Below are positions 22,801 to 58,976 of a DNA stretch of 64,000 nucleotides, piece by piece. The notes under the pieces were generated by a model. That model ran no database searches. It had not been told where the DNA came from and saw nothing but the letters and a program-made list of their open reading frames with translations. Made by a program: the position numbers and the translations under genes. The stretch's first letter is position 1. Every line of letters starts with the position of its first letter. Source of the DNA: Procambarus clarkii (lineage: Eukaryota > Arthropoda > Malacostraca > Decapoda > Cambaridae); contig NC_091193.1 of the NCBI RefSeq assembly GCF_040958095.1, positions 21,771,047 to 21,835,046 on the forward strand, read 5' to 3'.

Positions 22801-25800
22801 GAAGAACATTTTCAGCCCTAATATCTCCAGCTTCTTGCAGCTGCATTTCCAGATCTTTAATGATAGAATTCAGTTTTTCTTCTAACGCTGTTTTTTCTCG
22901 AGATGCATTTTCTTCACCTAATATAATACTTTCATTCAGGGAAGAGTATTCCTTTTCAAGCATAATCTTCTCCTGGGAAATCATTGCAAGTTTCTTTTCC
23001 AAGTCCTGTTTTTCATCCAACCACTTTATCTCATTAGCAGCATTCTTTCCTTCAACATCTTCCACAGTACTCTTTAAGAAATCATTCTCTTGTTTAATAA
23101 CAATCTTCTCAGATAGTAAAACCTCCTTCTCTGTAGACAAGCTCAGAAGATCTTTATCTTGCTTTTCAAGTAATTCTTGCAAGTTCTTAATTTGAACAGC
23201 AGATTCGTCATGTTCTTTCGACATCGCTTTACATTCTTCTTTGACAAAAATTAACTGCTGTCTTAAGTCATTAATAATTTCTTCATTTTGATTATTCCCA
23301 GATGCTAATAGACCCTCTAATTCAGCTCTTACTGTGTCTCTAGACAGAACCATTTCTTCTAAATTTGATATTTTCTCATTTAATGTAATCTTTTCTGCCT
23401 CGAAAAATTCCTTTAATTGTTTTTGAGATTTCTCATATTCAGCAATTATATTATTGTGATTTTCCAATTGCTCATTTTTTTCTGTAATAATAATGGCATT
23501 TTGATTCAAGGAATCCATCAGTTTTTGAGAAAGCATTTCCCTTTCTTTTACTGCTTCAGTAGCTACATTTTCAAAATGGTTCACCTCTTTTCTTAATTCT
23601 TCAACTGTGTTTGTTGCATTATTTAATTTTAGCATTTCTTCTTTTACAATTTCACACAGCTTGGCAAATAGTGATGATATAATCTTCCACATTTCTTCCA
23701 CAGATGTACTCTTCTCAATATCAAGCAACCCAACTGCATGAATGTAGAACGTCATCAAGCTTTTGTTAATACTGTCAAAGCTCGAGGAAAGTGAGTCACA
23801 AACTGTAGAGTCTCTTGACATTATCAACCTTTTACTCTGTTCTTGAACTTGTTCAAGAGCTTCAACTATATTCAGTATATCTCCCTCAGGTGTAAAATTT
23901 TCCCTCTTGGTTAGTGCTGCTGCAAGTACTTCCTTAATACTTTGCATATTTACCAAAACATCTTCCTGATCCACTGGAAGCAGAGTCTTGCTTAAGGAAG
24001 GGTACACATTTTTGCAAAGTGATGTAAGGGACATTCCAGTATTTTGTAATTCACCCAAAAAAAGCTTCGCATTTTCAGCCTCCTTCTGAAGTTGTTCAAC
24101 TCTGGCAATCAACTCTGAATTCTGTGATTTTAGTTCTTTAATATCCATTGTTAAGTGGTCAGCTCTGTTCCGTTCTTCCTCAACAGATTTTTTACCCTGT
24201 TCTACTTCACTAGCAATTTTACAAAGTTCAGTGTCAAAAGAGGATTTCTCCTTCTGTGCATCCTCCAAGTTTTTCCTAAGACAAGATATTTCATTTTCTA
24301 CATCAGCAGAGTTTTTCAAATATTTAATTTTTTCTTCAGTGAGTTGTTCAACTTCAAACTTTAGTTTATTTACCTGAGCAGCCAAATAATCAAATTCTGT
24401 TTTGTTTTCAGTAAAGTCAACATGTTCATTATCTTTCTGTTTCAAATGTTCAATTAATTTCCTGTTCTCTTCTTCTTGAGCTTTCAATTTTTCAATTAAA
24501 TCAGTTTTCTCTTTTTCAGCAATATTAGAGCTTTCTGTCATGGCACTGAGTTCCATCTTTAAATTCTCTATATCAACACAGAACTGCTTCACTCTGACTT
24601 CATCGTGAATTTTTTCTTGTACTAATTCTTCTAGTTTTGATTTCAAGTGCCCGATTTCTTCTTGCATAGACCTTTCAGTGTCATTTCTTTCTTCTATTAT
24701 TTTTTGTAATTCTATATTTTTTTGCTGATAATTTTTTTCAATTTCCAAAATTTTTTCTTTTGAGCATTCAATTTCTGCTATGTGTTGAGTTTTCTGTGTT
24801 TCAAATTCTTCTACAAGCTGTTCCAAATGTCGGCTCTTGTCTAACTCTACCTTTAATTCCTCCTGCAGTGTGTTTACCCTCGAGATTGCTGCCTCACATT
24901 CTGTTCGTAATTTTGTGTTAGTATTTTCAAGGACTTTTTCCACCAGTTGAACTTTCATGTTTTGTTCCTGTAATTCTTTGACATAATTCTCCGAATCCAA
25001 AACTGAACTTTCATTTTCTTTCAGTTTTGTTTCCAGTTCTTTGATACTATCTTGATTTGACTTGAGAATTGCATCTTTTTCTTCCTGCAGTTTCTTTAAG
25101 CTCTGAACCTGACTCTCAAAACTTTTAACTTTGTCCTCAAGTGCCTTCTTGTCATTCCTAGAACTTTCTAAAATAATGTCTGATGCCTTTTTTTCTTCTT
25201 TCAAGCAATTCAGCTCTCCCTGTATCTTGAGGCCTTTTGCAGCAAGTTTCTGTTGCTTCTCAAGTTCCTTTTCAATTGCTGACTTTTCCTGAAGAAATTT
25301 CTTACATTTCATCTTCAGGATATCCACTTGTCCAATCTGTGCTTGTAGATTTTCCACTTTTTCCTATAAATATATAAATACTGAGCTTTAAAGAAATACA
25401 ATGCAGAAAAAGTACAGAACAGTTATAGCAAGATAGAACTCATTATCATTCATCATAATAATTACCCTGTTACCCACTTTCAGGGGACTGGAAAACATCA
25501 GCCTAGACAAGATAAATGAACTACAAAGAAAGAGAAAACCAAAGACACAATTGCACCCATTCATTCACCATAGTTAACACAACATAGCGCCACACAATGC
25601 CAGCAAAACATTACAGCAACACTCCTCAAGCTGTCAGACACAAACATGTCCACATTTACCACAATTTATAAAAGAATAAGTTGATTGAGAGTGAATTTTT
25701 GCAAAACTGTACTCTTATGTATTTTTTTGAAGGACAAATCATAGGAACCAATTTACATCTGGTTATTGGTGCTGCCATGAATGTTTTTTTTAATTATACA

Positions 25801-37639: not shown

Positions 37640-40600
37640 CTATTGTGGCAGTTTTAAACCTAAAGTGTTAGTAGTGCCCACAGCACTTGCAAAATAATCT
37701 TCAGCATGAAAAATTGTAGGACGGTTGAATGACAGCTGTGATGATGTTGGGGTTCTGATTGGATACTGTTCTTTCTTCTGAAAAATATAATAGATGTAAA
37801 ATAACAACACTAACATAAATGCTTTGTATTGGTAAATAAATGCTCAAACTTATTTCCACAGGAATCTACATTATCTTTAAGATATTTTATCATTACTGGA
37901 TGTCACTGAATTGTAAAGACAAACATGCATTTTCTACTCACAAAGAAAAGTGGCCTAATAACTGTTGTAAAACTATGACTTGAGCCTATGTCTGCCTCAG
38001 CTTGATTTACAGACGTCTCCATCTTAACCAAGTCATCTTTGACATGTACTACTAATCTTTCCAAATGATCAATACTTTGGAAGGTACGCTGAAGAGCCTA
38101 AAGTACAAACATTAAAACTTTTTCAGAAAGAACCATCTATGTACAGTACTGTATATCATAAGAGCAACTAAATACAGGTAATTTGTTAGGTATTATTAAA
38201 CAATATTTTCAATAAATGAACATACTACACCTTTAAATATTTTTTACCTGGTAATTTGAATAAACCTGTGGAACCAGCACATCCATGGTGTGTCGACTCT
38301 CGCTGCGAGTCTAGATAAAATAAAAATTATAACACTATTATACTAAAGGAAGAGAAACAGGTTCATTAAAACCCTCTAAAATTCAAGACAACAGATCATC
38401 AAACAATATACAATATAATTAGTATTTAAATAAGTATAGAATACAGGTACATTCAAAAATGATAATGTTACCATCTAATGTCATATTGTTTGTGTTTCAA
38501 GATAAAAAATAAATAATTTATAATGTAGTAATGAAGTTCAAAGTTGATTCAAAATATACTATTCTTTCTAAACTTAAGTAGCTTGAATGCCTCACTAACC
38601 AGCCTGTCCTCTCCAGTATTCACAATGTCACTTAAATTATGTACTAAACTGCCCGGACCTAGTCTAACCAAGGACCCACAAATAGAAAACGTGGACATCA
38701 AGTCAATTTTCCAAGCAGCTAAGATTTATAGTACAGTACATAATTTTTTGGCCATAGCAGATTTGTGTCAAAATGTGATGTACTATTTAAGAGGATTGGT
38801 TACATTAACACTACCAGGCTACAGAACAAGGTCCTGTTACATCTAGACTCATGTCGAGGAGGAGGCCTGCTCGAGGACCGGGCCGCAAGGATGTTGAGCC
38901 CCGAAATCATCGCAATGCAAGGTGCAATGCATACTGCCTAGGCCAGTTCTGAAAATTTTCCAGGTATTTCATCCTACTCACCAAGGACCTAGATGCAAAA
39001 TAGGTTCAACAAGAGCTTTCACTAGGATGCAAAATAAGGTCAACATAAGTGACTTGGGTAAGTCACTAGTTCCTTTGACACAGACCACAGAACAAAAGAT
39101 GGAGTTCTTGGTTACCTCTACATAACTATGCCCACTAGATGATAAGTTAAAGTGAAATTACCTGTAACCTATAAACACAAAAGCCAAATACACCTATGAG
39201 CAACTCTACTACTTGAAGGTTGGCATTCAATTCCCAACCATGTAAGTGGTTCGGCACTATTCTTTTCCTCCATCCTATCCTAAATCCTTCCCTTCCAAGT
39301 GCTATACAGTCATAATGGCTTAGCATTTTCTCCTGATAATTACCTTGCCAAACGACTACAGTACAGTATTTAGCACTTGAAAAGAATGACTATAAGTATT
39401 TGGGATAGGACAGAGGTAAAGAATACAGTAGTGCCAAACTACTAGGAAGGTTGCGGGATTGAACGCTGACCTGCACGAAGTAAGACCTTCGCTCTACAAT
39501 CCAGTCCAAGTAGCTAAAGTATGTTATGTTTCAAGCCAATATGTTTAAGCATATTGAACAAAACACCCTGAGAAAAAATGAGAAGAAACAAAACAAATAT
39601 AACTGTACACAAGAAACCTCTAATGAAGCCCTATCAAGATACCAAATCTATAGTGATTTGTTTCTTTGATTTTTCACCTCTTCCAGATAAAATTTCTTGC
39701 CACTAACCACTAACCATTACACAGCTGAGTGTTCAACAATATTAAAGGTTTTAGAGGCATAAAGAAATACTTATACTGTACAATAATATAAATATATCAT
39801 CCAAAATGCTATGCATACTAGTGGCTTTAGGTATTGTATGTACTATCTCTATCTTTAAATCCAACATTATGTATGTAATTCAATGTATGTACCTTTACAT
39901 GAATAAAAAATCTATATCTAAATCATATCACTGTCCCATCATGTAAAATGTTGACTCAAATCGAAGGACAATTGTTTCTGTGTTAGCAATTAGCAACTAT
40001 TTCACTTATGGGATAGTCAAATCAGTGCCCCGTGGAATTCTTCAAATAGGCAAGCTAAAACCATACCTCACAAAGTTAGCATTTTCTAATAACTATTTGT
40101 TAATTCAATAAAAGAAGAAATCAAGGAAAACAAAGACACAGGCCTTTAATTTGTTAATGTTATTTTATGGATGATAGCAAATATTCCCTAAAATTTTATG
40201 CGTACCCTTTCAAGAAGACTGCCATATTCTTCTAATCTCGTCAACATTGATTCCAGCTCACGATCAAGAGCGGATCTCTGTACAATGGATAAACAAATTC
40301 TATGTAGAATATTTGCACTTTCTTAGATTTTTTAATAATAATTAATGATAATTATAATAATAATAAATGATAATTACTGTATAATAATAATTGTAACAAT
40401 AATGATAATTGTAATAATAATGATAATTGTAATAATGATAATTATATTATAATAATAATAATAATAATAATAAATGATAATTGTAATAATAACTATAATT
40501 ATAATAATGATAATTATAAGTGATAATTATTATAATAATAGTAATAATTATAATTATAATAATGATAATTATAATAGTGATAATTATAATAAATGATAAT

Positions 40601-41413
40601 TATAATAATAATAATTATTAATAATTAGTAATTTATACAGGGTATAAACAATATGAAACATAAACCAATTTCTAGCTATTAAGGCCAATATGAGGATGAA
40701 GTACTTGGCCAGTATGACTATATGTACAGCATAGCACCAGCAAGTGGCAGAGGACAGACTAACAACATGGATATTAAGTCAAATCTAAACAAAATTTTAT
40801 ATTTTACTGTGAATGATCTCATACTAAAATCATTTATGATCTTACTGGTGCACTTACAACTATCCAAATAATGCAATACTGTATATTTTTTTAAACTAGT
40901 TCAAATTAGTAAATCATTATTGTCGTAAACTTAAATCAGCTTCAAAGTTTATACTGGAATTCCTATTTGATTACAATACATAATGAGGGTAGATATATTT
41001 CATCTAGAATTAGTTTAAATCTTAAGAGGTTCTAGATAAAATATGTCTACAATATGTGTTTGCAATCCATTACATATTTATAGGCCTTTAAAGAAAAGTG
41101 GAATGTTAACAATCTTTATATTTTCTACCACCACCTTATCATTGCAAAACCACCTTGATGTCGGTCATCAACAAAGATCAAAATGCAGCCATAAATTCTT
41201 TTTTAATTTGCTATTTTTATTATAATTTTTAGTAAGACCAGTTTTCCCAGCTGTACCAAACAAAACTAAATAAAATTAAAGCATAACTTATAATAATGGC
41301 TACAGCGAGAAACTAACCTCCGAGGTTGCATCCACTTCAAAATATGCAGCATAATCTTTAGCTGTCTGTCTCAAGATCTCGTCTCGCTTCTCAGCATCAA
41401 ACTCGCCAGCCAT
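37640..41413 (-). CDS. BLOC1S4: Biogenesis of lysosome-related organelles complex 1 subunit 4 (cappuccino)
   Basis: Small coiled-coil subunit of BLOC-1, the cytosolic complex that forms endosomal tubules feeding lysosome-related organelles. Exons in transcript order: 41318-41413, 40206-40277, 38248-38310, 37942-38097, 37640-37777. All are phase 0, with AG/GT borders and a TAG stop, giving 174 residues (human 217; the difference is mainly the low-complexity human N-terminus). Matches to human: RELESMLTRLEEYGSLLE against ASLEDLLTRVDEFVGMLD; IDHLERLVVHVKDDLVKMET against IDRLEAFVRMVGGRVARMEE; NQAEADIG against TKAEAELG; and the tail PTIFHAEDYF against PVLFRTEDYF. The start MAGEFDAEKRDE was chosen because it leads into the conserved AKDYAAYF helix. 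An in-frame ATG at 41596 would add 61 basic residues unlike the family. Intron 1 holds an AT microsatellite. Confidence 0.92.
38848..38925 (+). repeat. Fragment of a decapod LINE tail
   Basis: CGAGGAGGAGGCCTGCTCGA, GGACCGGGCCGC and GAGCCCCGAAATCAT form the downstream part of the same LINE tail seen at 11960-12185. It lies in a BLOC1S4 intron. Confidence 0.45.
40325..40640. repeat. AT microsatellite (TAA/TGATAATTATAA type)
   Basis: Interleaved runs of AATAAT and TGATAATTATAA fill about 300 bp of BLOC1S4 intron 1, beginning about 50 bp from the 3' side of exon 2. Confidence 0.85.
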
Positions 41414-42625
41414 TATAACTTGTGCTCTGACTTCCGGTTCTCTAAGTTCCTTCCTCTCATTAATGATATGACAAATCTGCAATAAAGTTTTCTCCTCACG
41501 GTAACTGCCTGAGCGGCGGTGCTTGGTCACACATCTCTCAAAGGTGCACGAGTGAGGTTTGTGTAAGACACTGTTAATAAAGGTAATTTGTGGCACGAAA
41601 CTTCAATATTTCTACGGTGGCTGGAGAATATGATGATGGTATCACTCAGTAGCTCCGGCTGCAATATTTATATGTTATTTGATTTCTTTTTGAGATTACT
41701 CTGATATGGCCTAACTTGGAGGCATTTAACATTTGCTGTGGCCACTTGTTTCACGCGAAGTGGAAGGTCTCCTCCTCCTCCTAGTGTGCGCTAGACGCTG
41801 AGGAGTATTTTGAGAGAGCTGCGTCTTGCTTGAAGTTGGTTTTTAGAGTGTGTTGTGACTGAAGCTCTGGTAAAGGTTTGTTTACTCTGGCGCTCCTTCA
41901 CTCGTCCACCTGACTGATCAGTAGTGTCAATCAGCTGATCTTCCAACTACGTTTTCTTTGTTCGTTAGTCAGCATCAGAGAAAACGGCCACACTTCACAC
42001 TGACAGGGGAAAGCACCGACTTACTTATATTGAGTCCCTACCCCCCCTTCCCCCCCGGTGAAGATCAACTGCATGTTCAATTCAATTTCTTTCTTTATTA
42101 TGCACCCCATACCCATCCCGTGGGCGGTGGTGTAAAGGATTACAGAGGCACAGAATCGGTTCAGGAACTGAACCCTCTAGTTCGTTTAGCTAAGCAAATA
42201 ACATTCTTTTGACGCTAGTTACACAATTATTAATGTTATATATACATGTACACACTCTCATACATACATGTACATATATATACGCATACATATATACATA
42301 CACATACATATTTAATCACCTACACAAATACACACATCAATAATCTTTTGTGTCACAAGTGATCATCAAGAGGCTCACAACAGTCACTATACAAGTCACT
42401 TTATATCTATGGTGAGTCACACAGTTACTAGTCTTGCTGCACACCCACCCAACTGGGCGGCAGCTTTACAGTCATGTGCATGCTGCACCTACAGTCAGCA
42501 AATGTTGGATACTTCGCTAAGATTTCGGAACATTTAACACAAAGATCTAATAATTATAATGATTATTTTCACTGCGACCCAACTAGAATGAACCCCAACT
42601 AGAGATTCACATGGATGATGGGACA
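41414..42625. promoter_or_regulatory. Divergent spacer between BLOC1S4 and TMEM17
   Basis: This stretch should contain the BLOC1S4 promoter (41414 to about 41650), but no TATA box or initiator could be fixed. The middle (42083-42540) is an interspersed repeat with microsatellite-like TACATATA runs. The TMEM17-proximal side begins with the X-box, listed separately. Confidence 0.5.
42083..42540 (+). repeat. Unclassified interspersed repeat, copy 1
   Basis: Shares CCCCATACCCATCCCGTGGG, GGATTACAGAGGCACA, TTAGCTAAGCAA, TATATCTATGGTGAGTCA and CAGCTTTACAGTCATGTGCA, in order, with 43490-43838. Both copies are in the same orientation, 1.4 kb apart, on either side of TMEM17 exon 1. Confidence 0.7.
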
Positions 42626-42639
42626 GTTGCCATGGCAAC
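42626..42639. promoter_or_regulatory. Palindromic X-box (RFX binding site) upstream of TMEM17
   Basis: GTTGCCATGGCAAC is a perfect 14-bp palindrome identical to the optimal RFX-family site (half site GTTGCC). RFX factors switch on ciliary genes, and TMEM17 encodes a transition-zone protein. It is 419 bp upstream of the ATG. An E-box CACGTG follows at 42681-42686. Confidence 0.75.
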
Positions 42640-43057
42640 ACCTCCGGCGGGTTACGTTGTTTGTAAACATTAGTCTCCTCCACGTGTTGTAGTGCAGTGC
42701 TCCAGGAAGAAATCCATTACCTCAGTCTTAGCTGTTAAAGGAGTTTCTGTCGTAATTTAAAGAACTGTATACACAAGATTAAAATAAAATAAAAAACTGC
42801 CGAGTTGAAGCTATTAACATTAACTATTCGTCTATAGTAGACCACAACTATATGTTGACGGCTGCAATTGGTAAACAATCTAGACTATAGACCACAGACC
42901 ATTCACAGTTACTGACCGTCCTTTGCACAGACCACAGATCTTTATCAGCTGCTATTCATCCATAAAAAGAGACCAAAGACCATTCACAGCTACTGTTCGT
43001 TCATAATAAAAAGCACAGACCATTCTCAGCTGCACTTTGGGCAGCTTACCAATCAAC
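42640..43057 (+). promoter_or_regulatory. TMEM17 proximal promoter / 5' leader with degenerate repeats
   Basis: Between the X-box and the start codon lie an E-box and a leader in which CACAGACCATTCACAG-like units (42887-43030) recur about four times with variation. No TATA box is evident and the transcription start is not fixed. Confidence 0.45.
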
Positions 43058-46000
43058 ATGTCCAGAATTCAAGGAAATGCAAGACGACTTGTATCAAACA
43101 CAGTTGAGACTTTAACTGGAACATTTTTCCCTGGTGTTTCATTTAGTCAACTTGGTGAAAATTCATACGGTATGTGTCATAATGGCTTTTAATGTTGACT
43201 AGATTATGAGATACTGTATAACTAATAATCTTTTATGAGATATTTTATGAGCATCTTTATTTGTAAAGAAAATGAATGCTTTTTCTTATGAGTGTACTGT
43301 ATAAAGTAAAATTAATATTTGAAATGTTTTTTACCACCATCACCATTTAATTTCACTTAACGGTGAATTAAGAACTTTTTAAATACTTTTTGAATAGGTT
43401 ATCTATGGAAAGAAGCCTCAAAGTCTAATATTGGTTCTGGGCCTGGTGTTCCCATGCACCACCACTGAACCAGTCATTAAATTAATTTTGTTTCTTTATC
43501 TATCCCGTACCCCATACCCACCCCATTGGCAGTAGTGGAAAAGGTTACAGAGGCACATAATGGGCTCAAGAATTGAACCCCAAACTTATTTAGCTAAGCA
43601 AGATTCTAAACATTTTAATGTATACCCAATATATCTATAGTAATTTTAACATAATTCGTTCAATTACTGAAACACAACAGTCTCTAAACCAAGAAGTTTA
43701 TATCTGTGGTGAGCCAGCTACATAGTCACGAATCATGCACTCGACACCCTTCCAACTGGTGACAGTGGAAAGTTTACAATCATGTGCGTGGGCTAACAAC
43801 AGTAAGCAAACTTTGGATATTTGGTTAAGATTTCTGGTAATACTAAGTACCTCATTTTTTATGTAAGCTATGTGAACAGTTCTACAGGTCTACTTCAGCA
43901 GGTGTGCAAATCTCCAGGCATACTTGTAGCCAAGCCTAAGCCTAGCTGTAGTAATGTCGAGAAGTCTGCTGACTTCATTGGATGACAAATAGAGATGTGG
44001 CTCTTCCTGCATAGTGGTATGATGATGGATGGAATAATTAGTGTAAATTTCACTTTGTCTCAAATCTACTAAATTATGTTGAAGTTCTTGGTATATTTCT
44101 ACCCTCTGTTGGCCCAAAGGCAATCCAAAATGGTAATCAGTTGCCTCTTTAAGAGCTCATGCTTTGGCTAACTCACCAGTTCTATCATGCATTTGGAGGC
44201 CAATATGGGATTGGACCCACAGGAGACACTCCTGACTATCAATGATTATTTTATTATATCTTGTCTTCTTTTTAGACACAATTATATCCCAGTTATGTCT
44301 TAAGATTTGAGTACAATCAAAGATGGCAACATCACTTACAATTAATGTGTCAACTTTTGATACATATACAGCACTTGTTTGAGTGTGATTCCTGTGGGAA
44401 ATATTTCTGTCTGAAGAATGGAGGCCTAGTCATTTATACAAGCTCCCCTACTCAGAATAGGAGCCATCTCTCATTGTCAGAGCAACTGTACATCCAGCAG
44501 TTCCAGTGGATTGATGTAGGGAACCATTAGTGTAAATAGTTTGGTAGAGGGAGTGCACTTTGACCAGAGCGTCAATCTACCTAAAGGTATTGTATGTTGC
44601 TTCAAAAATTCATGTTTGTTCATTTGAGGCATCAGGCTATTGTGATTTGTGTGTGTAATGAAGTAAGGGCAAAGAGGTATAACAGCTTATTGATAGAGCT
44701 CGGGTGCATGGGGGAATTGTGTAAAATCCTGGTTTGTGTCTCGGAGAGGCTGCAGGATCCGAGTAAGGTCAGTAGAACTTCTTTTACCATGTCGTAGCTC
44801 AGTCGATTAAGGCAGCGTCTGGGATCCTCTCGGACATAGGTTCGAACCCTCGTCACGGCCCTTGTGGATTTGTTCAAGAGATTCTGTTCCATAAAATGAT
44901 AACAGAATGGACACTGTACATGCAGTAACCATGTTCCTGAACTCCGGGTGTTTTTATCCAGATGGCAAGACACAATCATCCATTTGCAAGGAAATATTGG
45001 CAAATATAACCATGTATATTATGGTCAAAATTACACAGTACAATAGTTCTTTTTATTTATATATTTATTTATTTATATTCAAGAAGGTACAATGGGTTGT
45101 GAGAGTACATAACATTGGTGTTTGAGTATTTGAATGCTCAAACACTTGAACACTTGACTGCAAGCCAGAGGGCATGTGTGAAACCCTGATTTTTCCTTCG
45201 GTGAAGCCTCAGGAACCCTAGAGGATTCACTTGCTTTTCAGGTTGCGATGCTTTTGACCATTTTGTAGTGTAGTTGTCTATGGCATTAGCTTGGGAGTAC
45301 CCAGACCATAAGTTCAAAACCTTCACATGGCTCCTACTGAATTTCTCATTACTGTAATACATTACATTCATGTGATTTCTTTCTGTAGTATTATTATTAT
45401 TATGAGTAGTAGTAATAGTAGTAGTAGTATCTGGAGAATAGCAGTTTGTCTTTTGTTTAGTCCAAAAATGAAAAAAACATATTGTATACAAATAACATTA
45501 ACATGAATTTGTGCATACTGTACTACGATACAATTACATGCATATACAGTATGTTTTAATATAATAAAAATCCTTGTTGATTTTACATTTATCAATATAG
45601 TAATGCAGGTTTAAATAAATATAACTTTTGTGTGTATTTAGTGCTTCTTTCTCCATTATTTTCCAGGAAATGAGGTGGTATCAAGTCTTCCATTGCAAAT
45701 GGTTATATACTTCTCTGCACTTTTTTTTCCCTGTTGGTGTGCAACCTCAGTTGTCATGATGACTTTAAAGGTTGGTCTGATTTGCAATACTTGTTCCTTA
45801 AAAGCATTTCTTGCTTTAATATCTTTAAGGAAACCTCATATAGAAACTATGCACAAAAAACTTGAAAGAAATTAACCATTTATTACATGTGTTGCAGTTT
45901 GCCAGTAAAACTGTACCGTGCATGCATATTATCTTCAGTTACTGTACTTTATTTCTCACATTCATTTATTTAAACCATATTCACATCTGAAAATGTACAG

Positions 46001-49000
46001 ATCATTTTCTCAGTTCTATTTTCATTATTACTCAATTCTCTATTTTTATTCCCCCCCCCCCCCCCCCCATCCCATCCTCAACCCTTATCCTGACCCCTTC
46101 CAAGTGCTATATAGTCGTAATGGCTTGGCACTTTCCCTTGATAGTTCCTTCCTTCCTTCTCTCTTTTTATTGTCAGGCTTCATAATTGCTTTAAAATTAA
46201 CTCATATAAATGGTGAATTTTACATTGTAAAATTACTCATACACAATTAAATGAAAATATTATCAATAATATTAATTTGTGTAGTTTCAGTATGTGACCA
46301 ATCTCTACCAGTTTATTCTGGTTGCTATTTACATCGCTTTGCCCCTGATTGAAGTTATTCGTCTCTACATAGGATACATTGGAAATCTGGAAGAAAAGGT
46401 TAGTACAGTACTGTACAGTGCTTTAATTGAAAACATTGAAGAAATTGTTTAGTTTAATTTTTGTATACTGTATTACTGAATGGATCTGGCCATTCATCTT
46501 TTTTCAAGAGATTCTACAAGCCATCTTTAGCTTACCTTATGTAGTACTGTACTTGCAAATTCTTTATGCCAATGAATTTTGTAATTGCACTTACAGTGCC
46601 TCCTTTTCCCTATTCAAAATATTTTTCTAGTAAGTGCATTGCACTTTACAGGGTTTAGAATTACCGTAAAAAATATAAAATTTGTAGCAGAGTGGTGCTA
46701 GGCAAGATTTGTTCTGTTAAGTGTAGTATTTTGTTAATAAAGTGAAAGGCATTATATTGATATAATCTCAAAAAGCAGTTCTTGTTTTTTCTTATTATAT
46801 GCAACATTTCCTGCTGACTTTCTGTCCTTGTTGAAGCCACTAGTGTTAGTGGCCCTCAGATAAATTCAGGTCAATTTCTCATTTCCTCTAGTGATGGTTC
46901 TTATCTTTGTCAACATTTACACTAATGCCAATTGGGAGTCTGTTCTATTTTCTTCACATTGCTGTTTAATATTTTTCTTCACAATGTTTCTTCCTTTCTT
47001 ATTTGTATGTAATTACCTAAGTGTAATTACAGGATGAGAGCTATGCTCATGGTGTCCCGTCTTCCCAGGACTCTTTGTCGAATAATGCTTTGAAATTACT
47101 GGCAGTTTTGGCCTCCACCACCTTCTCACCTATCCTGTTCCAACTGTCTACCACTCTCTTTACAAAAAAAAGTGAATGTGCAAGCTGATGGCTGTTTCAT
47201 TCTTTTCACATCCCCTATTAATCTATGTACAGTAGGTGGTGATCCCACCACTGTGTGGTGTAATGAGCTTTGCATCTTCTTCCCACTAAACAAATGAAAT
47301 GAGGAAAACAATACAAAGCATGGTTGAAAATGGGTGAAAATTCCTATCTCCAATTTGCATTGCAGCCAATAGATGGCACCCCAATCTACATAAGGTAAAA
47401 CTCTACTCCCACTCCTGGTACTGTTGTGAGGGCTGTATGCCATTTTGATTCCCTTAGACCTCTGGGCTGTCATTCCCAGCCCATGAGTTGAGGTGGGTGA
47501 AGGATAAGGACCCTGGGTTGCCATTTAGGGTGGCCATGAAAGTTGGGGCTTCAGGTGTTTATGCATCTTAACCATCATTGCACCATTTTGTTTCTGGACT
47601 TTCAGGTCAGTTTTCTTAATTTTTAGATAGATCTCTCATCGCCATTTTCCCTTCACCTTGTTGAGCGAGCCGGATTTTGGTCCTGGTTCTCAGTAGGTTT
47701 GCGTAAATCTCAGAGGCCTGGTACAACCTGAAGGCTTAGCAGTACCAGTGCTTAAAGTACTTGAAACTACAGACGGGCCAACCAGGAAGGTCACGACATT
47801 ACATTCACTGTATGATTTGCACCCTCAGTGAGAATAAATGGGTGACTGGGCTGATATTAATGTAGGAGATAAGAATATTAATAAGGTAAGAATATTAATA
47901 ATTATAATAATTACTGTAATAATAATTAAATAAGTAGAAATTTATTGTATAGTTCTTATATGAGTAATTGGAGCATAATATGTATGTGAAATGTTATGTA
48001 GGTAGATGGAAATGTTATTGCATTTGATATAATAATTACCTATGAGTTTGAACCAAAATACTGTATAGTTATGGTCAAGAAAGAAAGGAAGAACAATTAT
48101 TTGTGTAAAACAAACACAAATGATAAAGTACTGGAAGTGGTCAATCAGTTAAGTACCTGGGATGTACAGCTTGAGTAATAAAAAGTGAAAATTTGTGCAT
48201 TCAAAGTTGAGAGTAGGCTCAATTAGTAATAGAAAGTAACTGGTGCAATGAAAGCATTGAAAAGCATGAAAAACAAGATAGGAATAAATGTAATGTAAAT
48301 GTGCCTAATACTGTATATGGTTGTGCCAGTTAACTTGACTGCCATGAATTTTAAGTTTTTAACCCCCCCCCCCTTTTTGTTGGGGGGGGGGGAGGGTTCC
48401 TTTCTAAATGTTCATAAAAAATTCTAAACAAAACTTCTTTTCTGGGGGGAGCCCCGTCGGCTCCCCGGAGCTATCCCAGGCTGATATGCTAATGTCAGAC
48501 TTTGGCATCAGTCATGTGTATGGAGTTCTTAGGCCTACCGGGGACCACGGCCAGAACCGGGCCCCCTCAGAGAGGCAAGGGGAGCAATGGCCTATAGAAG
48601 CCCCCGTGTAGTTGGAAGCATTCTATGTCTGCCATCGACCGGAACAGGCACCCAGAAAGGTAAGCGCCCCAAAACAAACCCCTATTCTGGTTAAAATTGC
48701 TACCTAAAACCGAACTAGTGGATAGAACTCCCCAACCGAAAACAAGCAAACTAGTGTGACGTCACACACTGCCGCGCCGCTGTCTGCGCAGCTCCCCCCT
48801 CCCTGGGAGGGGGAAGGGGGAGCCCCAGACCCCCCGCGCCGGCTACCCACACCTCAGTTCTTGAGGCTGATGCTATAGGCGATGGTCGTGTGCTCTGGCT
48901 CCGGTGTCGCTACTGCACTGTGCTTTGAGTGTGGTGTTAGTTTTGTGGGTGCGAGAGCCAGGAGTTATCTTCAGTACTCGGGCTGCATGCGCCTAGGGCT

Positions 49001-52000
49001 GCCTTCCCTAGGTGCCCTGTAAGTACTGCCCTTGGGGCTTGGGGCCACCTTCCACAGGCTCCTCGGGGTCTGCCTCTGCTGGTCCGTTTTACCTTTCGGT
49101 TTTTCGGCCGCCTGTTGGGCTCTTGGGTGTTCTGTTCTCCCTTGTTACCGGCAGGTAAGAGGCAGTTTGCACTGGTAGGGGCGCAGGGTGCTGCTCAGCT
49201 TGTAATTCCCGACATCGCGGCCGGCTCTGTTCCTTGGGGTTCGCTGTCCTCTTGCGGGGTTTTGTTTTTCTTTTTGTTTTTGCCTGGTGGGGGGTTCTGT
49301 CATTTTATTCAGTTTGTTTTTGCCCTTCCACTGTTCTCCTCGGTGGCGCCCCCTGCTAGGTCCCCGTGAGTGTACACGTCCCTGGGGTTCAGCTTTAGAA
49401 GTTTGCTTGGTAGTTTTGGGCGCCGGTTTGCAGCACCCTGCCTGGGACTACCTGAGCGCGAGTCCTCTTAAAGTAAACGCTCAGGACCCTGGGAATCCCC
49501 TAGGGGGCGCGTGGGTCCGATGGATGTGACCCCGGAGTCCCCACTCGCTGTGTGCGAGTTTGAGGGTTGCTCGGTCCCCTTGTCTCAGGGTGACCCTCAT
49601 TGTTTTTGCCTCTGCCACGCTGCCTGTTGGGTCGGTGATACTTTCGACCCTGAGTCCTGTGAGTGTTGCTGCTTGCTTGTGACTCAATTTACCCAATCCT
49701 CTGATGATTCTATTCGGGTACAGGCGGCACGTGCGTTGCAGTCTAGGTTTCGTCTGTTGCAACGCGCTCGGTTGGTTGCTTCCCCGGATGCCCCGGGGCT
49801 GCCCCGCTTTGCTTTTAGAGACCCGGACTTGGGGGTGGGGGTCGCTTCGATCCTGGTTCAGTCCGCACCTCCTCGTCCTTCCCCTTCTGTTCGTTCTGGT
49901 CCCCCGCCCCTGCTTCCGGCCCCGAAGCGTCTGAGGGTTTCGGGGTCGGAGCAGGGGTTACTTGATCTCGAGACTCGGGCAGCTTCGGGGGTTGCCCCTT
50001 CCGGGGGGGTGGCAGAGGCATTCGAGTCTTGTCTCCCGGCCGAAGCTTCAGGGTCTGACCAGTGGGCCCCCCTTCCTCCAGCTTTTCCGGCTGCTCCGTC
50101 CTTGTCTTGTGGGGTCGGGGCTTGGGGAGAGGACTCGGCCTCGGGTCCTGTGGTGACGGACCTCGAGGCTGGGGAGGGGCTGACTTGGGGGCCTTGGGCC
50201 CCGCTGGACCCCGCCTGGGTTTTTCTTCCCACTGAGCGGGGCTTATTGTTACAAGGAGTGGGGTTTTCTTTCCCCCCCTCTGCGTACGAGTTGGATTTGG
50301 TGTCGGCCCCTCCCCGGGTACGGTTCCGTGTTCCCCCGGGTACGTCGGTTCCGTCCTTCCGGAGGTTTTCGGCTTATCGCATCCAACCTGGTGTGGTGCG
50401 AGCGGCCTTTGCAGCTTACCTCCTGCGTGACCCTGATTATGCCTCGGAAATGGATCCGTCCACGTTCAGGTTTGGGACTTCGTTCCCTTTCTGGCTCCGT
50501 TACGAGGTTCCGGAGTCGTCCTGGCTAGCAGACTGCCCCTTGTTTGGTCTGGATTCCTGGCATTCTTTGTCGTTCCCGCACGCTGGAGTGGCGGGAAGCT
50601 TCCACGGTGCTTCAGGTTTTCCTGGGGGGTGAACTTGAGTACCTGAATGAGTGCTTGTTTGCCCCTGCCCTTCCCCGCGATGTGGGCGTTATTCAGCTCC
50701 ATGTGCAGGTTCCCTCCCTTTCGGCGGCGCTCGTGGCGGAGGACTTGCGCGCTCGGGGCCTTTTTGTGTTCGGCCTTGCGGTTCTTTTCCCTCCTGGAGC
50801 TGTCTTCGGATTGGCTCGTGGAGGATGTGGGGACGCTTGGGTCAGTCCCGGGGTCCGGCACCTTGTCCTCGGCTGCGCGTTCGTCGGCTGCCTTGTTGAA
50901 GCTGTTCACGCCGATTTTGCGGGATGCGGTTTCCCTGTTCTACGCTTCCCGTCTCGCGTGTCGGCAGGCGGTGCTGGGTTCCTCCGTGGAACCTGCTTGG
51001 GCTCTGGCTCTTAGGCGTTCTTCACCTTTTTGTCCTCTCCTGTTTGGGGAGTCGGCTGTGGCGCAGTTTATTCAGGCTGCGTCGGCGGCTTGTCGTCTGA
51101 TGTCGGACTTGTTGGTTTTCCGGGGGTCCCGGGGTGGGTCTTCCCGGAAAGGTCGTGCCAGGGCTCGGGGTTCCTCTCGTCGTGGTAGGCCTCTGGTGTC
51201 AGGTTTGGGGTTGGCTCCTCCTGCGGACCCTCCCTCGTCTGGTCGGCGCGGTGTTCGCGCTGTGCGGGGTTCTGGGTCTCGTAAGGGTCGCCGGCCCTTT
51301 CGCGGTTTGCCCCTTTGACGGGGCGATGGGGGGGCGGCTTGCGCTGTTCGCCCGCGCCTGGTCCCACGATTCGTGGGCCTTTCGGGTCGTGTCTCGCGGC
51401 CTGCGGTGGCGTTGGGTGGCCCCTCCCCCCTTTGGGGGGTCGGGGCTGGCAGGGCAGGCTTCTTCCCCTGCGCTCTGTCGAGTCGTCTTGGAGTGGGTAC
51501 GCTTGGGCGTCGTCGAAACGACGTCGTCCCTCAGATGGGTTTCCCGTTCCGAAACGGGACTGCGCGGACCTGCGGTTCATTCTGGACTTGTCCCGTCTGA
51601 ACCCCTGGGTTCATTGCCCCTCCTTTCGGATGACTACGCTGTCTCAGGTTCGGCTCCTCTTGGAGCCGGGAGCTTGGATGGTGTCCCTGGACCTCCGGGA
51701 CGCTTATTGGCATGTCCCGATTCATCCGCGGTTCAGGGACTGGCTCGGTTTTGTAGTGGGGCGTCTGAGTTACCGCTTTCGTTGTCTCCCGTTCGGGTTG
51801 AACCTGGCACCTCGCGTGTTCACACGCCTTACACGGGTTGTGGTGGCTCGTTTGCATCTCCTAGGTGTTCGGGTGTTGGCCTACCTCGACGACTGGCTGG
51901 TTTGGGCTCCCAGCCAGTCAGCTTGCTTGCTAGCCAGGGATTTGGTTCTTTCCCAGCTCGCCGGGTTCGGGTTCTTGGTGAACTGGAGGAAGTCCCATCT

Positions 52001-55000
52001 GGTTCCCTCTCAGGTTCGGACTTGGCTGGGTCTCGTGTGGGACTCTCGAACCGCCTCCTTGTCTCTCCCTCCGGAGTCTCTCCTGCGGCTGCGGTCCCGC
52101 CTTCGTCTGTTTCTGGAGGGCCCTCGGGTCACCCGGCGGTTGCTCGAGGGGCTGTGCGGGAGCCTGAACTTCGCGATGGTGGTCTACCCGCCGGGTCGGG
52201 TTTGGCTTCGACGGCTGTTCTGGTTCCTTCGGGGTTCCCCCTTCCGCCTCTCTCGCGATCGCAGAGTTCGACCCCCGGGGGACTTGCGTCGGTTGCTGCG
52301 TCACCGGCTTCCTCTTCGGGTTTTTCGGGGTTCAGTGCCTTGGCGCCTACCAGAGCCCTCGCTCGATGTGTACACGGATGCGTCGTCTCTCGGCTGGGGT
52401 TTTGTGACCAGTGCTCACCAGGCCGGCCAGGGGCGTTGGGATCCGTCCTTCCGTCGAGCTCACAGTACGGTGCGGGAGTTCGCGGCAGTGTGGTTTGCTC
52501 TGGGGAGGATTCGGGTGGCCCGCGGATCGACGATTCGGCTCCATTCGGACTGCTCTCCGGTGGTTCATTGCCTGAACCGCGGGGGTTCGATGCGGTCCTT
52601 GTCTCTTTGGGGTTGGTCGCTTCGGGTGACTCGTCTGCTGAGTTCTCGGGGTTTGGCTCTCCTGGCGGTTCACGTACGGGGCGTGTCCAACGTCTTGGCC
52701 GACGCCCTGTCTCGCTTCGTTCCCCTCTCCACGGAGTGGACGGTCGACAACGAGTCCTTCCGTTGGCTTTGCCAGACGTTCGGGCGCCCCGAGGTGGACC
52801 TCTTCGCGTCGGCGTGGTCGAGGCGTCTTCCAGTTTATACGGCGCCCTTCCCCGATTGCGAGGCCGTCGGGGTCGATGCCTTTCGGCTCGACTGGTCGAG
52901 GTGGGGGTTCCTGTACCTCTTTCCCCCGGTTCGGCTGTTGCTCCAGGTCCTGACTCGCTTAGACTTACCGGGGGAGAGTTGTCCTTCTGGCCCCTTGGTG
53001 ACCGGCCCAGCCTTGGTTTCAGGCGCTGGTTGCTCGGTGTCCGAACCCGAGGGTTTTCCCGCGGCTCCGCCTCTTTCAGCAGATGGGCCGGTACGTCACG
53101 TAGCTGGTTCGATCTTCTCCTCGAGTCTTCGCGTATGGTTTTTTTGACTCGAGTCTATCATCATCTCTATGGTGATCAGGTGGCCTCCTTGTTGGTGTCC
53201 CACCTGAGGGCTTCTTCTCGGTGGCAGTATGAAGTTTCCTGGCGGTCCTTCCGTTTCTTTTTGCGTCTTCGTCGTCTTAGCTCCTTGTCTGTTCGGGTGG
53301 TCTTGTCCTTCCTCTCGTGGTTGTTTCAGGACCGTCATCTTATGCCTAACACTGTCGCTTCGTATCGTGCGGCGCTGGCGGAGCCGCTTCAGCTTGCTTT
53401 CGGTATCGATGTTACGTCTGCGCCGTTTCGCAAGCTGTCTCGTGCATTGTTTCACCTCCGGCCTGCTCATGTGTCGCCTGAGCCGTCCTGGTCTTTGGAC
53501 AGAGTGCTCGCTTTCCTTTCATCTCCTCGTTTCGTTGTGGCCCCTTCGGTCCAGGATTGTTTTTCCAAGGCACTTTTCTTGTTGGCTTTGGCCTCTGGGG
53601 GTCGGGTAGGGGAGCTTCATGCTCTCCTCCGGCGCAGGGGTTTCTGCTCTTTTGGTCGTGGTGATAGTTTTGTTCGTTTGCAGCCGTCTCCTTCTTTTCT
53701 GGCGAAGAATGAGACTGCTGCGTTCCGGAGGGGTCCATGGGTGGTTGATGCTTGGTTGGTCAGGCCGGGGGTGCATCATGTTTTGTGTCCGGTTGCGGCG
53801 CTTCGCCGTTATTTGCGCGCCACAGCTTCTGTGTCCGGGGACGCGCTGTGGGTTGATCCGGTTTCCCTTCTTCCCTGTTCGCGGGTTCGGGTCTCTCAGG
53901 TCGTCCGCAGGGTTATTAGGTCCAGCCAGCCTGCGGTCTATCCCCGTGCCCATGACGTTCGTAAGTTCGCGGCTCTTGCTGCCGTCTTTGGGAATATGTC
54001 TTGGTCTGATATTGGGGCGCGGGGGATTTTGGCGGTCGAACAGGGTCCTGGCTGCTCGTTACCTTGTGAATGTCCCTGGGCCTCGTCGGGCCTGTGTTGC
54101 TTTGGGTCGGCGGTTGCAGCCAGTTGTCTCGGCTTCGAGTTGAGGGGTGAGCGACGACCGCCTCCCGGGTAAGTCCCTCTTTTTCTGTCTGTGGGTAGTT
54201 AGCTCCGGGGAGCCGACGGGGCTCCCCCCAGAAAACCAGCGTTGAATGTAATGAAACGCCATTTTCTGGGTGAGTCCCGGAGGCTCCCCGGCATCCCTCC
54301 CTCCCTCCGGTCGGCGGTTTTTTGCGTTTTTGACATCCAGCCTCAAGAACTGAGGTGTGGGTAGCCGGCGCGGGGGGGTCTGGGGCTCCCCCTTCCCCCT
54401 CCCGGGGAGGGGGGGAGCTGCGCAGACAGCGGCGCGGCAGTGTGTGACGTCACACTAGTTTGCTTGTTTTCGGTTGGGGAGTTCTATCCACTAGTTCGGT
54501 TTTAGGTAGCAATTTTAACCAGAATAGGGGTTTGTTTTGGGGCGCTTACCTTTCTGGGTGCCTGTTCCGGTCGATGGCAGACATAGAATGCTTCCAACTA
54601 CACGGGGGCTTCTATAGGCCATTGCTCCCCTTGCCTCTCTGAGGGGGCCCGGTTCTGGCCGTGGTCCCCGGTAGGCCTAAGAACTCCATACACATGACTG
54701 ATGCCAAAGTCTGACATTAGCATATCAGCCTGGGATAGCTCCAGGGAGCTTCCGGGACTCACCCAGAAAATGGCGTTTCATTACATTCAACGCTGGTTTT
54801 TTATATCAAAGCATTAATTTTTGAAGTTGGGCGAAATGAAAAATCTATTATAATTATTTTAGTTTGGTCATAGTGAGGTGAAGAAATGTTGACGACATTC
54901 TGAAAATAAATTTTCAACTACTGTATTTTAATAGATTTCTCATCACAAATATCTTCCTGGCCCATAAAAGTTCCTGAAAATTTGCAGTATCAGTATTTCC

Positions 55001-55682
55001 AAGGACAGGCATCAGTAAATGGATGGTGATGCACCTAAAATGGTAAGCCAGGAACGTTGCTTAAGTTTTCAGGATTACCCCCTCCCCCACAATACAGCAG
55101 ACGATTGCCAAAGGTCTCTAGTGTACAATGACAACCACATATGCAGACAAGGAGTCACAATAATGTGGCTGAAATATGTTGACTAAACCACACACTAGAA
55201 AGTGAAGGGATGATGTTTCGATCCGTCGTCCTGGATCATTCTCAAGTCGATTGACAATCTACTTGAAAATGGTTCAGGACGGACCGAAACGTCGTTGTCC
55301 CTTCACTTTCTAGTGTGGTTTGGTCAACACAACCACATAGAATATTTAGGAACTTTGTTTCCTGGATTTTTAATAGCTTTTGGCTTAAAACTGAAATCAA
55401 TTAATTGATGTTGTTGTATTTATATTTTTCTTGTTGCAGGTCCCCGAGTTAGCTGGAAGTTGGTTATTAAGTCTTCTGTTGCAGCTGCCACTGCTTCTTT
55501 TCTTAATCTTAGTTCCAGGCACTTGGTCATTGCCAATGGATTATGCTGTCAATTCCATTTTTCTTATTTTTGTAATTTTTCATCTCATTTTTGGATACCA
55601 AGCAATAAATATAACAGCAGCACATCAGACACGATTATATCACATGTACTTGGTAATGAGACAAGCTCAAGATGAAGAATGA
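43058..55682 (+). CDS. TMEM17: Transmembrane protein 17, ciliary transition-zone (MKS module) protein
   Basis: Four-pass membrane protein of the transition zone at the base of cilia, where the family works with the MKS/B9 complex to gate membrane proteins. Exons: 43058-43169, 45667-45770, 46291-46398, 55440-55682. Borders are AG/GT, phases agree, and the TGA at 55680-55682 ends 188 residues (human 198). Matches to human: NEVVSSLPLQMVIYFSALFF against NEMVSSLALQMSLYFNTYYF; LIEVIRLYIGYIGNLEEK against LIEAIRLYLGYVGNLQEK; VPELAGSWLLSLLLQLPLLL against VPELAGFWLLSLLLQLPLIL. Four hydrophobic stretches are visible: exon 2, exon 3, and two in exon 4. The start MSRIQGNARR replaces human MELPDPVRQR and is the only suitable upstream ATG. 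Intron 3 (9 kb) contains a DIRS element in the same orientation. AATAAA at 55745 can serve for polyadenylation. Confidence 0.94.
43490..43838 (+). repeat. Unclassified interspersed repeat, copy 2
   Basis: Second copy of the repeat at 42083-42540, in TMEM17 intron 1 (CCCCATACCCACCCCATTGG, GGTTACAGAGGCACATAATG, TATATCTGTGGTGAGCCAGC). Confidence 0.7.
43890..44590 (-). mobile_element. LINE RNase H domain remnant
   Basis: Minus-strand pieces IYTNGSLHQSTGTAGCTVA (first catalytic strand of RNase H), WVPSHIGLQMHDRTGELAKA (RNase H helix region with a conserved histidine) and SRLLDITTARLRLGYKYAW (tail after RNase H) occur in the correct order. RNase H plus this tail is typical of I-clade/Jockey-type non-LTR elements. 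Stops interrupt the reading. Confidence 0.68.
44698..44876 (+). mobile_element. tRNA-derived SINE
   Basis: A box TAGCTCAGTCGATTAAGG at 44795-44812 and B box GGTTCGAACCC at 44839-44849, followed by TCGTCACGGCCCTTGTGGAT. A conserved non-tRNA head (GGTTTGTGTCTCGGAGAGGC) precedes the A box. Same family as 9496-9693 on the other strand. Confidence 0.78.
45150..45345 (+). mobile_element. Diverged tRNA-derived SINE
   Basis: The region GTGTAGTTGTCTATGGCATT (A-box-like) and AAGTTCAAAACC (B-box-like) follows the head TGTGTGAAACCCTGATTTTT. It resembles the SINE at 44698-44876 in layout but is much decayed. A separate TATTTATTTATATTCAAGAA block precedes it at about 45055-45085. Confidence 0.4.
46990..47220 (-). 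mobile_element. LINE reverse-transcriptase C-terminal remnant
   Basis: On the minus strand the readable piece contains RVVDSW, NRIGEKVVEAKTASNFKAL and FDKESWEDGT, the extreme C-terminus of a non-LTR RT family with many decapod copies (pattern FFANRVVDRWN, EKVVEAKT, FK). Stops follow. It lies in TMEM17 intron 3, antisense to the gene. Confidence 0.65.
47640..47830 (-). repeat. Unclassified interspersed repeat, copy 2
   Basis: Reverse-complement match to 19200-19370 around GAGCCGGATTTTGGTCCTGG. Neighbouring sequence at 47420-47580 (CTGGGCTGTCATTCCCAGCC) also looks repetitive. Confidence 0.45.
48438..48872 (+). repeat. DIRS left inverted terminal repeat
   Basis: Begins TTTTCTGGGGGGAGCCCCGT and ends near CAGTTCTTGAGGCTGATG. 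Reverse complement of 54337-54799 apart from the outermost roughly 60 bp and indels in the C/G-rich tract. Contains CCCAGAAAGGTAAGCGCC, a good splice-donor match, at about 48651-48668. Confidence 0.9.
49511..50632 (+). CDS. DIRS gag-like region
   Basis: Open region of about 370 codons at the 5' side of the element, the position of gag in the family. The N-terminus is cysteine- and histidine-rich (CEFEGC, HCFCLCHAACW, CECCC), followed by a proline/serine/glycine-rich middle. A shorter open region (50647-51318) follows it in another frame. Assignment is by position and composition, not a recognised fold. Confidence 0.6.
   Translation: MGPMDVTPESPLAVCEFEGCSVPLSQGDPHCFCLCHAACWVGDTFDPESCECCCLLVTQFTQSSDDSIRVQAARALQSRFRLLQRARLVASPDAPGLPRFAFRDPDLGVGVASILVQSAPPRPSPSVRSGPPPLLPAPKRLRVSGSEQGLLDLETRAASGVAPSGGVAEAFESCLPAEASGSDQWAPLPPAFPAAPSLSCGVGAWGEDSASGPVVTDLEAGEGLTWGPWAPLDPAWVFLPTERGLLLQGVGFSFPPSAYELDLVSAPPRVRFRVPPGTSVPSFRRFSAYRIQPGVVRAAFAAYLLRDPDYASEMDPSTFRFGTSFPFWLRYEVPESSWLADCPLFGLDSWHSLSFPHAGVAGSFHGASGFPGG
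51315..53147 (+). CDS. DIRS reverse transcriptase / RNase H
   Basis: About 610 codons. RT motifs include SLDLRDAYWHVPIH, FRCLPFGLNLAPRVFTR and the catalytic box AYLDDW. RNase H follows with DVYTDASSLGWG, REFAAVWFAL, LHSDCSPVVHCLNRGG and NVLADALSR. A downstream segment with VDLFASAWSRRLPVY is of a type conserved after RNase H in YR retroelements. The RT is of the Ty3-related kind that DIRS elements carry. Confidence 0.9.
   Translation: MTGRWGGGLRCSPAPGPTIRGPFGSCLAACGGVGWPLPPLGGRGWQGRLLPLRSVESSWSGYAWASSKRRRPSDGFPVPKRDCADLRFILDLSRLNPWVHCPSFRMTTLSQVRLLLEPGAWMVSLDLRDAYWHVPIHPRFRDWLGFVVGRLSYRFRCLPFGLNLAPRVFTRLTRVVVARLHLLGVRVLAYLDDWLVWAPSQSACLLARDLVLSQLAGFGFLVNWRKSHLVPSQVRTWLGLVWDSRTASLSLPPESLLRLRSRLRLFLEGPRVTRRLLEGLCGSLNFAMVVYPPGRVWLRRLFWFLRGSPFRLSRDRRVRPPGDLRRLLRHRLPLRVFRGSVPWRLPEPSLDVYTDASSLGWGFVTSAHQAGQGRWDPSFRRAHSTVREFAAVWFALGRIRVARGSTIRLHSDCSPVVHCLNRGGSMRSLSLWGWSLRVTRLLSSRGLALLAVHVRGVSNVLADALSRFVPLSTEWTVDNESFRWLCQTFGRPEVDLFASAWSRRLPVYTAPFPDCEAVGVDAFRLDWSRWGFLYLFPPVRLLLQVLTRLDLPGESCPSGPLVTGPALVSGAGCSVSEPEGFPAAPPLSADGPVRHVAGSIFSSSLRVWFF
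53090..54172 (+). CDS. DIRS tyrosine recombinase
   Basis: 3' part of a long open region whose recognisable domain starts near the helix MVFLTRVYHHLYGDQVASLL. Core-binding part: RWQYEVSWRSF and NTVASYRAALAEPL. Catalytic part: the first arginine in SGGRVGELHAL and the H-x-x-R box in AHDVRKFA. This places it in the lambda-integrase-like family used by DIRS elements instead of a DDE integrase. It overlaps the end of the RT/RNase H region, as is usual for the family. Confidence 0.87.
   Translation, partial: GTSRSWFDLLLESSRMVFLTRVYHHLYGDQVASLLVSHLRASSRWQYEVSWRSFRFFLRLRRLSSLSVRVVLSFLSWLFQDRHLMPNTVASYRAALAEPLQLAFGIDVTSAPFRKLSRALFHLRPAHVSPEPSWSLDRVLAFLSSPRFVVAPSVQDCFSKALFLLALASGGRVGELHALLRRRGFCSFGRGDSFVRLQPSPSFLAKNETAAFRRGPWVVDAWLVRPGVHHVLCPVAALRRYLRATASVSGDALWVDPVSLLPCSRVRVSQVVRRVIRSSQPAVYPRAHDVRKFAALAAVFGNMSWSDIGARGILAVEQGPGCSLPCECPWASSGLCCFGSAVAASCLGFELRGERRPPPG
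54200..54291 (+). repeat. DIRS internal complementary region
   Basis: AGCTCCGGGGAGCCGACGGG through CCCCCCAGAAAA is the reverse complement of the left outer end. The immediately following CCAGCGTTGAATGTAATGAA through CCCGGAGGCTCCC is the reverse complement of the right outer end. The two ends joined head to head inside the element are the hallmark of DIRS1-like structure. Confidence 0.9.
54337..54799 (-). repeat. DIRS right inverted terminal repeat
   Basis: Runs from CCAGCCTCAAGAACTGAGGT to ATTCAACGCTGG plus a T run. Inverted copy of 48438-48872; the 60-codon stretch at 48567-48749 (minus) and 54460-54642 (plus) is the same in both. Confidence 0.9.
55178..55329. mobile_element. Foldback (hairpin) element
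   Basis: The left arm with CCACACACTAGAAAGTGAAG and GATCCGTCGTCCTGGATCAT pairs with the right arm GTTCAGGACGGACCGAAACG and CTTCACTTTCTAGTGTGG. Arms are roughly 68 nt with a short loop around CGATTGACAATCTACTT. The outer bases are GTTGAC / GTCAAC. It sits about 110 bp upstream of the TMEM17 exon 4 acceptor. Confidence 0.8.
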
Positions 55683-56772: not shown

Positions 56773-58976
56773 AATAAGTGAAATTTTTATTTTATCTTAA
56801 ATTCAACAGAACTATTATTACTTGGTCTTCAATACACAGAAATCACAATAATGTGATATATCAAATCACATTATACTGTATTTATATAATGTGACATGAA
56901 GTGTGTGAAACCCCGGTTAGGCTTCAGCGGAAGCCTCGGGATAGTCGTGGGGGCAGGATCCTGCCCCCAATCCTTAAGATGTGATTTCTTAAATATAAGG
57001 ATTCACATAAGTATTCTTGCCTGTGGTTCTTTAGTAAGTTAAAGCCCTTGCCTTCCATAAGGAATAACATTACTCAATGTGATTTAGTCTTGCTAGCAAG
57101 ATCCAGTTTATCCTGGTTGCCATATCACACACTGACACATTACGTATAACCAGCTGGCTAGAGTAATCCTGGAGAAAGTTTAAATTGATAAAAAGTCTTT
57201 CAACCAATGCTTTTTTTTTTTTTTTTTTGCTACGCTCACATTCAACCAATCCTCATGAAATGATGAATTTGTAGTACTGTGTGATATTTTATGTATTAAA
57301 TACAATTGTGTAAACAAAATTGTCATATAATTTTACAACACCTATTATTAATCTGTACATATAGTTTAAAGAATATTTGTTAAAATATAGCCCAAGGTTA
57401 GATGGTTAGGTCAGCTTTTAATGTACACAAAAATGTACTTAAAATACATGTTCAATATCAGCCACAAAATGTTTATGTTTATATAAAAATTTACTTTAAC
57501 GCCAAGCGCAATATGATGCACACCACCATTTTCTTTGTACCGTGTGAAGACGCGTAGTCACTGCACCACATTACCTCGCTCATCAATACTGTTTTCCAGC
57601 TCACTATAATCACCTACCTCATTCCTAACTTTTGAAGCCAGACTAACTTAGGCTTCTAAAAGAAACTATCCCTAACTATAATCATGCTAACACAGACATA
57701 TTTATAGTTATCATGAAGAAAAATGCACCTAATCAAATAAGGTAAATAAATAATGCATAATTTCAGAAGATTCATTCCCTTCAGCACTCCAATGAGCCTC
57801 CTAACATTGTCAAAAAATCTTAATATTAATTTAAAAACATGCATACAACTTATATATTTTCTGATATACAATTACATAAATATTATAAGTAATACATGTT
57901 ATAGGTAATCATAATCAAATTAACTCAGCTAAAATAAAGGGGTCTACAGAAGTGCAAAAGCTGGAGGATGTTAAGTCAATTCAAGGTCAGAATCACAAAA
58001 TATTGGTCAGAATTCTGACAAGAATCATAAAGCTTAAAAAGTTGTAATACTTTATACTTTTTATCATAAAAAAGTAATTAATACATTTATTCTAGAGGCA
58101 ACTTTTGCATTAGCCAAAATTCCTGAGCCCCTTACTATACTATACTCTAGTAAGATTGATTGTCATGGAAACCATGAATCTCAATGAAAATGAATAAATT
58201 TTGACCAGCAAGCATATGAGGTGAATGCATGAATAAAAATATAATCAGATCACTGGATAGATTGATAGTACAGGGCTCAAACTGGCAGTTCAAGCAATTT
58301 TTTTTAATACTGTAAATCTAAAAAGTGTATGTATGGCATAGATGTATGTAAATCTTTACTTATTACAGTATGTGTAAGTGCTATAATATCTTTTATTATT
58401 ATAAATATATTCAGCATGCCATGACCTCTAAGATAATTTTACCCGACTTCCAAGACTAGATACACAGCTACGCACAATTTATTAAATTTGTCTCATGTTA
58501 ACTTTAGTAACTACATTAATACACTGTATAGATTTTTTCAGGTATAGGTTTTAGGTTGGATGAACTTACATAATTCAGGTGTTCAAATTCCTCTGAGATT
58601 CCTTGCATCCCGTATTTTTTATGTATGTATTTCTTTATTTTTTTATGTATGTATTAAGATTTTCTTTTAAACTTTTACTTAACAGATAATGTGATATAAA
58701 AGATACACACAAATTATGTAAACAAAATAAAATGGAAACATTTCGTTTAGCTGCAAAAATATAAAACGTAACAATTACTATCTTCTTAACGAAAATTCAA
58801 ATATACTTGTAATCTAAAAATATATATACGAAGTTGTCTTACTAGTTACCACAAATTATAAAAGCTGCTGAAAATGTTTTAAACATATAAGTATATAAAT
58901 AAATATTATTAAAAACAAAACAAATTAACAAGGTATATAAGTATGTGAAAAACAAAATTTAAACTTTTGTAATGTT
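56773..58976. other. Intergenic, mostly unassigned
   Basis: A SINE-like head (TGTGTGAAACCCCGGTTAGG) lies at about 56900-56970 and includes the perfect 20-bp palindrome at 56949-56968. A T run lies at 57210-57229. The rest is AT-rich, with no gene or element that I can support. Confidence 0.5.

Follow-up and report, generated by a model that had tools for sequence, protein, structure and literature searches.

The locus described here raises the question of whether the RFX–cilium circuit reaches TMEM17 in the crayfish Procambarus clarkii, a member of a lineage whose cilia are thought to be mainly confined to sensory neurons. A 14-base palindrome resembling the RFX-binding X-box was located before a TMEM17 gene in the window, which denotes the whole 64-kb stretch of DNA that was analyzed. 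An X-box at this place is an expected instance of a long-known circuit, as existing knowledge predicts. Available excerpts of published work describe RFX control of ciliary genes in nematodes, flies, and choanoflagellates (PMC2873420, PMC3414849, PMC10530576), and an apparently conserved role of Rfx in primary cilia of Drosophila and other ecdysozoans (PMC9269926).

The palindrome and its expected frequency

The palindrome GTTGCCATGGCAAC occupies positions 42626–42639 and is composed of two GTTGCC half-sites separated by a 2-bp AT spacer, so that it has no direction of its own. The exact RFX palindrome that the original prediction placed here is indeed present, and it is the single exact copy in the 64-kb window. 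One other site lies within three mismatches of it (58159–58172, with 3 mismatches), which makes an up-to-three-mismatch count of 2 against a mean of 2.68 in shuffled sequences, 70 of the 100 shuffles reaching 2. Because this count does not exceed chance, it is the exactness of GTTGCCATGGCAAC that matters. A first-order Markov model predicts 3.6e-4 exact copies of the 14-mer per 64 kb, which confirms the earlier claim that chance would supply it far less than once per window. A search of both strands of the 64 kb for GTNRCCN{0-3}RGYAAC, the published RFX consensus given in PMC3414849 and PMC10530576, likewise found its sole match at 42626–42639. Chance matches to this consensus averaged 0.40 with a maximum of 2 in 60 simulated first-order Markov windows, from which approximately 0.003 matches per given 500 bp were obtained by arithmetic. 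Since the motif was picked after the window had been read, the value of 3.6e-4 overstates the surprise, and a fairer chance figure is the approximately 0.003 for a consensus match in the 500 bp that precede a ciliary gene. A looser 14-mer, RYYNYYATRRNRAC, which we take to be a relaxed form of the X-box, was dropped as evidence, as its 4 matches against 2.4 expected represent no excess. The palindrome further contains a Kozak-like ATG (GCCATGG), which its symmetry repeats as an ATG on the minus strand.

TMEM17, its divergent neighbor, and the spacer

Judged from its sequence, the downstream gene is a real TMEM17. The model consists of four coding exons on the plus strand, 43058–43169 (with the ATG at 43058), 45667–45770, 46291–46398, and 55440–55682 (with the stop codon), which together span 43058–55682 with GT/AG junctions and encode 188 amino acids. 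This 188-residue product matches Pfam Transmemb_17 (PF09799) with an E-value of 1.3e-24. As the family presumably also takes in relatives such as TMEM216, the product was compared with provisional human sequences, which gave 51% identity over 125 positions with human TMEM17 and only 20 aligned positions with human TMEM216. The Pfam match and the identity to the human protein bear out the name TMEM17 given in the original prediction. A PDB search with the model returned weak matches only (best E 0.0012), which were set aside. Searches of viral and prokaryote contigs confirmed no relative of TMEM17, which is what one would expect of a gene from an animal. TMEM17 is the one gene recognized as ciliary in the window, and its C. 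elegans counterpart TMEM-17 is described, in excerpts of PMC4794247, as an MKS-module protein of the transition zone. The end of the X-box is separated from the ATG by 419 bp (43058 − 42639), the very distance that had been claimed. The third intron (~9 kb) holds a reverse-transcriptase element at 51285–53144 on the plus strand (RVT_1, E 3.2e-17), which also shows an RNase H-like match under its Pfam cut-off.

On the other side of the spacer, a BLOC1S4-like gene runs divergently on the minus strand (37640–41413; ATG at 41413), for which a hand model of five coding exons and 174 amino acids was built with the start of exon 2 fixed by the frame and an AG. Its product aligned with a provisional human BLOC1S4 sequence at 33% over 163 positions, which supports the earlier description of this interval as a BLOC1S4/TMEM17 spacer; it matched no Pfam family at its cut-off, and the PDB gave weak matches only (best E 0.024), which were likewise set aside. 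The spacer measures approximately 1.64 kb from ATG to ATG and contains a copy of a dispersed repeat (42076–42526, no strand assigned), of which the pieces 42076–42197 and 42376–42526 can be aligned with 43477–43601 and 43673–43834 in intron 1 of TMEM17. The X-box is located ~100 bp past the end of this repeat, and its surroundings have no second copy in the window. That the X-box is part of the repeat was ruled out, as the similarity stops at 42526.

Candidate promoter elements

A forkhead-type octamer, TGTAAACA, is located on the plus strand at 42662–42669, 22 bp after the X-box, and includes a match to the loose forkhead motif RYMAAYA. The octamer occurs 11 times in the window and lies within 50 bp of approximately 2.1% of sampled positions. 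RYMAAYA itself was dropped as evidence, since it occurs 336 times in the window and 39% of positions have a copy no more than 50 bp away. An E-box (CACGTG, 42681–42686, no strand assigned), one of two in the window, follows the X-box by 41 bp. The plus-strand Inr-like sequence TCAGTC (42722–42727), 82 bp after the X-box, is a candidate TMEM17 start; it agrees with TCAKTY, which we take to be the arthropod-type initiator motif, and is the only plus-strand match to it in 42560–43060, a weak indication with ~0.5 matches expected per 500 bp. No plus-strand TATAWA was found in the same interval. A start near 42724, which is a guess from the sequence, would set the X-box roughly between −98 and −85 and leave TMEM17 with a 5′ UTR of approximately 335 bases, and the proximal position of the X-box depends on this unproven 5′ UTR. 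An imperfect tandem repeat (42889–43033, plus strand) lies in the presumed 5′ UTR as two copies 81 bp apart, for which TRF gave a period of 40–41. A bacterial promoter scan of 42500–43100 yielded 4 promoter-like sites against 1.7 expected, and was set aside as irrelevant to an animal promoter.

Probable RFX control of TMEM17 and the alternatives

The X-box before TMEM17 is probably real and functional, and we consider it likely that the 14-mer is a proximal-promoter element that is bound by RFX and activates TMEM17 in ciliated cells. The sequence, its uniqueness in the window, its place before a real TMEM17, and its position outside the repeat are observed directly; RFX binding, a start near 42.7 kb, activation, the cell type, and forkhead help are inferred. 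An RFX-family protein would bind the X-box, most likely in the form of a dimer whose two DNA-binding domains each contact one GTTGCC half-site, and this binding would activate TMEM17 in cilium-building cells. The transition-zone membrane protein TMEM17 would thereby be produced along with other ciliary proteins, and a forkhead factor may assist by binding the adjacent TGTAAACA.

This proposal agrees with the binding of RFX2 in mouse testis to Tmem17 and most transition-zone genes, as stated in excerpts of PMC4498915, though in those excerpts Tmem17 is absent from the listed transition-zone genes reported to change in Rfx2 mutants. The same gene is thus RFX2-bound in mouse, there in testis, a different cell type; the RFX site here is a predicted one. 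Of the original proposal that an RFX site drives TMEM17, the motif, its position, the gene, and the improbability of the match stand together with this agreement, and the driving itself stays at the level of probability. The further claim, that the motif would prove that the RFX–cilium link holds in this lineage, goes too far, as one motif is insufficient by itself. As far as the excerpted literature describes them, RFX X-boxes of ciliary promoters are likewise made of two inverted half-sites with a 2-bp spacer before a ciliary gene, and GTTGCCATGGCAAC is identical to the palindrome used for Drosophila Rfx targets (PMC3414849). The distance of 419 bp to the ATG is greater than the 100–250 bp before the coding sequence at which, according to excerpts of PMC2873420, X-boxes of C. 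elegans ciliary genes often lie.

It is rather doubtful, on the motifs found, that a composite RFX-plus-forkhead promoter drives TMEM17 here. Excerpts of PMC3414849 describe X-boxes and Fox motifs paired near the start of Drosophila fd3F/Rfx targets, with which the TMEM17 locus would share a candidate forkhead motif near the X-box by the presumed start. The octamer 22 bp away was counted on this ground in favor of a functional X-box. The fd3F targets in these excerpts relate to specialized chordotonal cilia, and their X-boxes are often imperfect, whereas TMEM17 is a transition-zone gene with a perfect one. C. elegans FKH-8, according to excerpts on this factor, binds near X-boxes, and its peaks show a forkhead-like motif (FHL) in place of the canonical one, so that the octamer fits this precedent poorly. 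If the composite promoter were true, RFX–forkhead cooperation would serve core, non-motile cilium genes in this lineage, as reported for C. elegans FKH-8 and beyond the specialized chordotonal genes of flies.

That the 14-mer is a chance sequence without a regulatory role appears unlikely. The consensus itself is expected ~0.4 times per 64 kb, the motif was chosen after reading, and its RFX function is predicted, which together leave room for coincidence; the figures of 3.6e-4 per window for the exact palindrome and ~0.003 per given 500 bp for the consensus argue against it, as does the position in front of TMEM17, a ciliary gene to whose mouse orthologue RFX2 binds according to PMC4498915. 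An RFX site could instead serve the BLOC1S4-like gene, alone or together with TMEM17, or a gene farther away, for which the divergent arrangement, the spacer of ~1.64 kb, and the palindromic motif would allow. This reading is quite improbable, considering that the ATG of the BLOC1S4-like gene lies ~1.2 kb from the X-box with the repeat copy in between, compared with 419 bp for TMEM17, and that BLOC1S4 is not known as a ciliary gene. Least probable of all, and very much so, is that GCCATGGC is the Kozak-type start of a short upstream ORF with an incidental resemblance to an RFX site. The bases of this ORF are read directly (42632–42673, plus strand; MATPPAGYVVCKH, 13 codons), but exon 1 at 43058 already accounts for the N-terminus of TMEM17, and a start codon leaves the second half-site and the full 14-base match unexplained.

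If real, the X-box acting on TMEM17 adds one crustacean instance to the conserved RFX–cilium circuit and points to a promoter that can be tested. Among the open-licence PMC papers searched, some of them judged by title, no paper was found on RFX or the X-box and cilia in crustaceans, decapods, or Daphnia, and none on tmem-17 with an X-box and DAF-19; the arthropod literature on X-boxes and RFX ciliary genes found there comprised RFX evolution and Drosophila work. Direct data on the RFX–cilium link may thus be scarce for the crustacean group.

In the rest of the window, tRNA and Rfam scans gave nothing. The minus strand carries scattered exons of coiled-coil-like type (1766–28170), including a 900-residue open stretch at 22664–25363; they are perhaps parts of one large coiled-coil gene and may include a second ciliary gene. 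Ten coiled-coil-like stretches gave sub-cut-off or no matches in Pfam, and the 900-residue stretch had no match in the PDB. A long repeat array at 15957–17336 translates as repeated GPTAAASY, i.e., a 24-bp unit, and a satellite-like tandem array at about 31.6–36.1 kb shows up both in the sequence itself and as a series of repeated ORFs.
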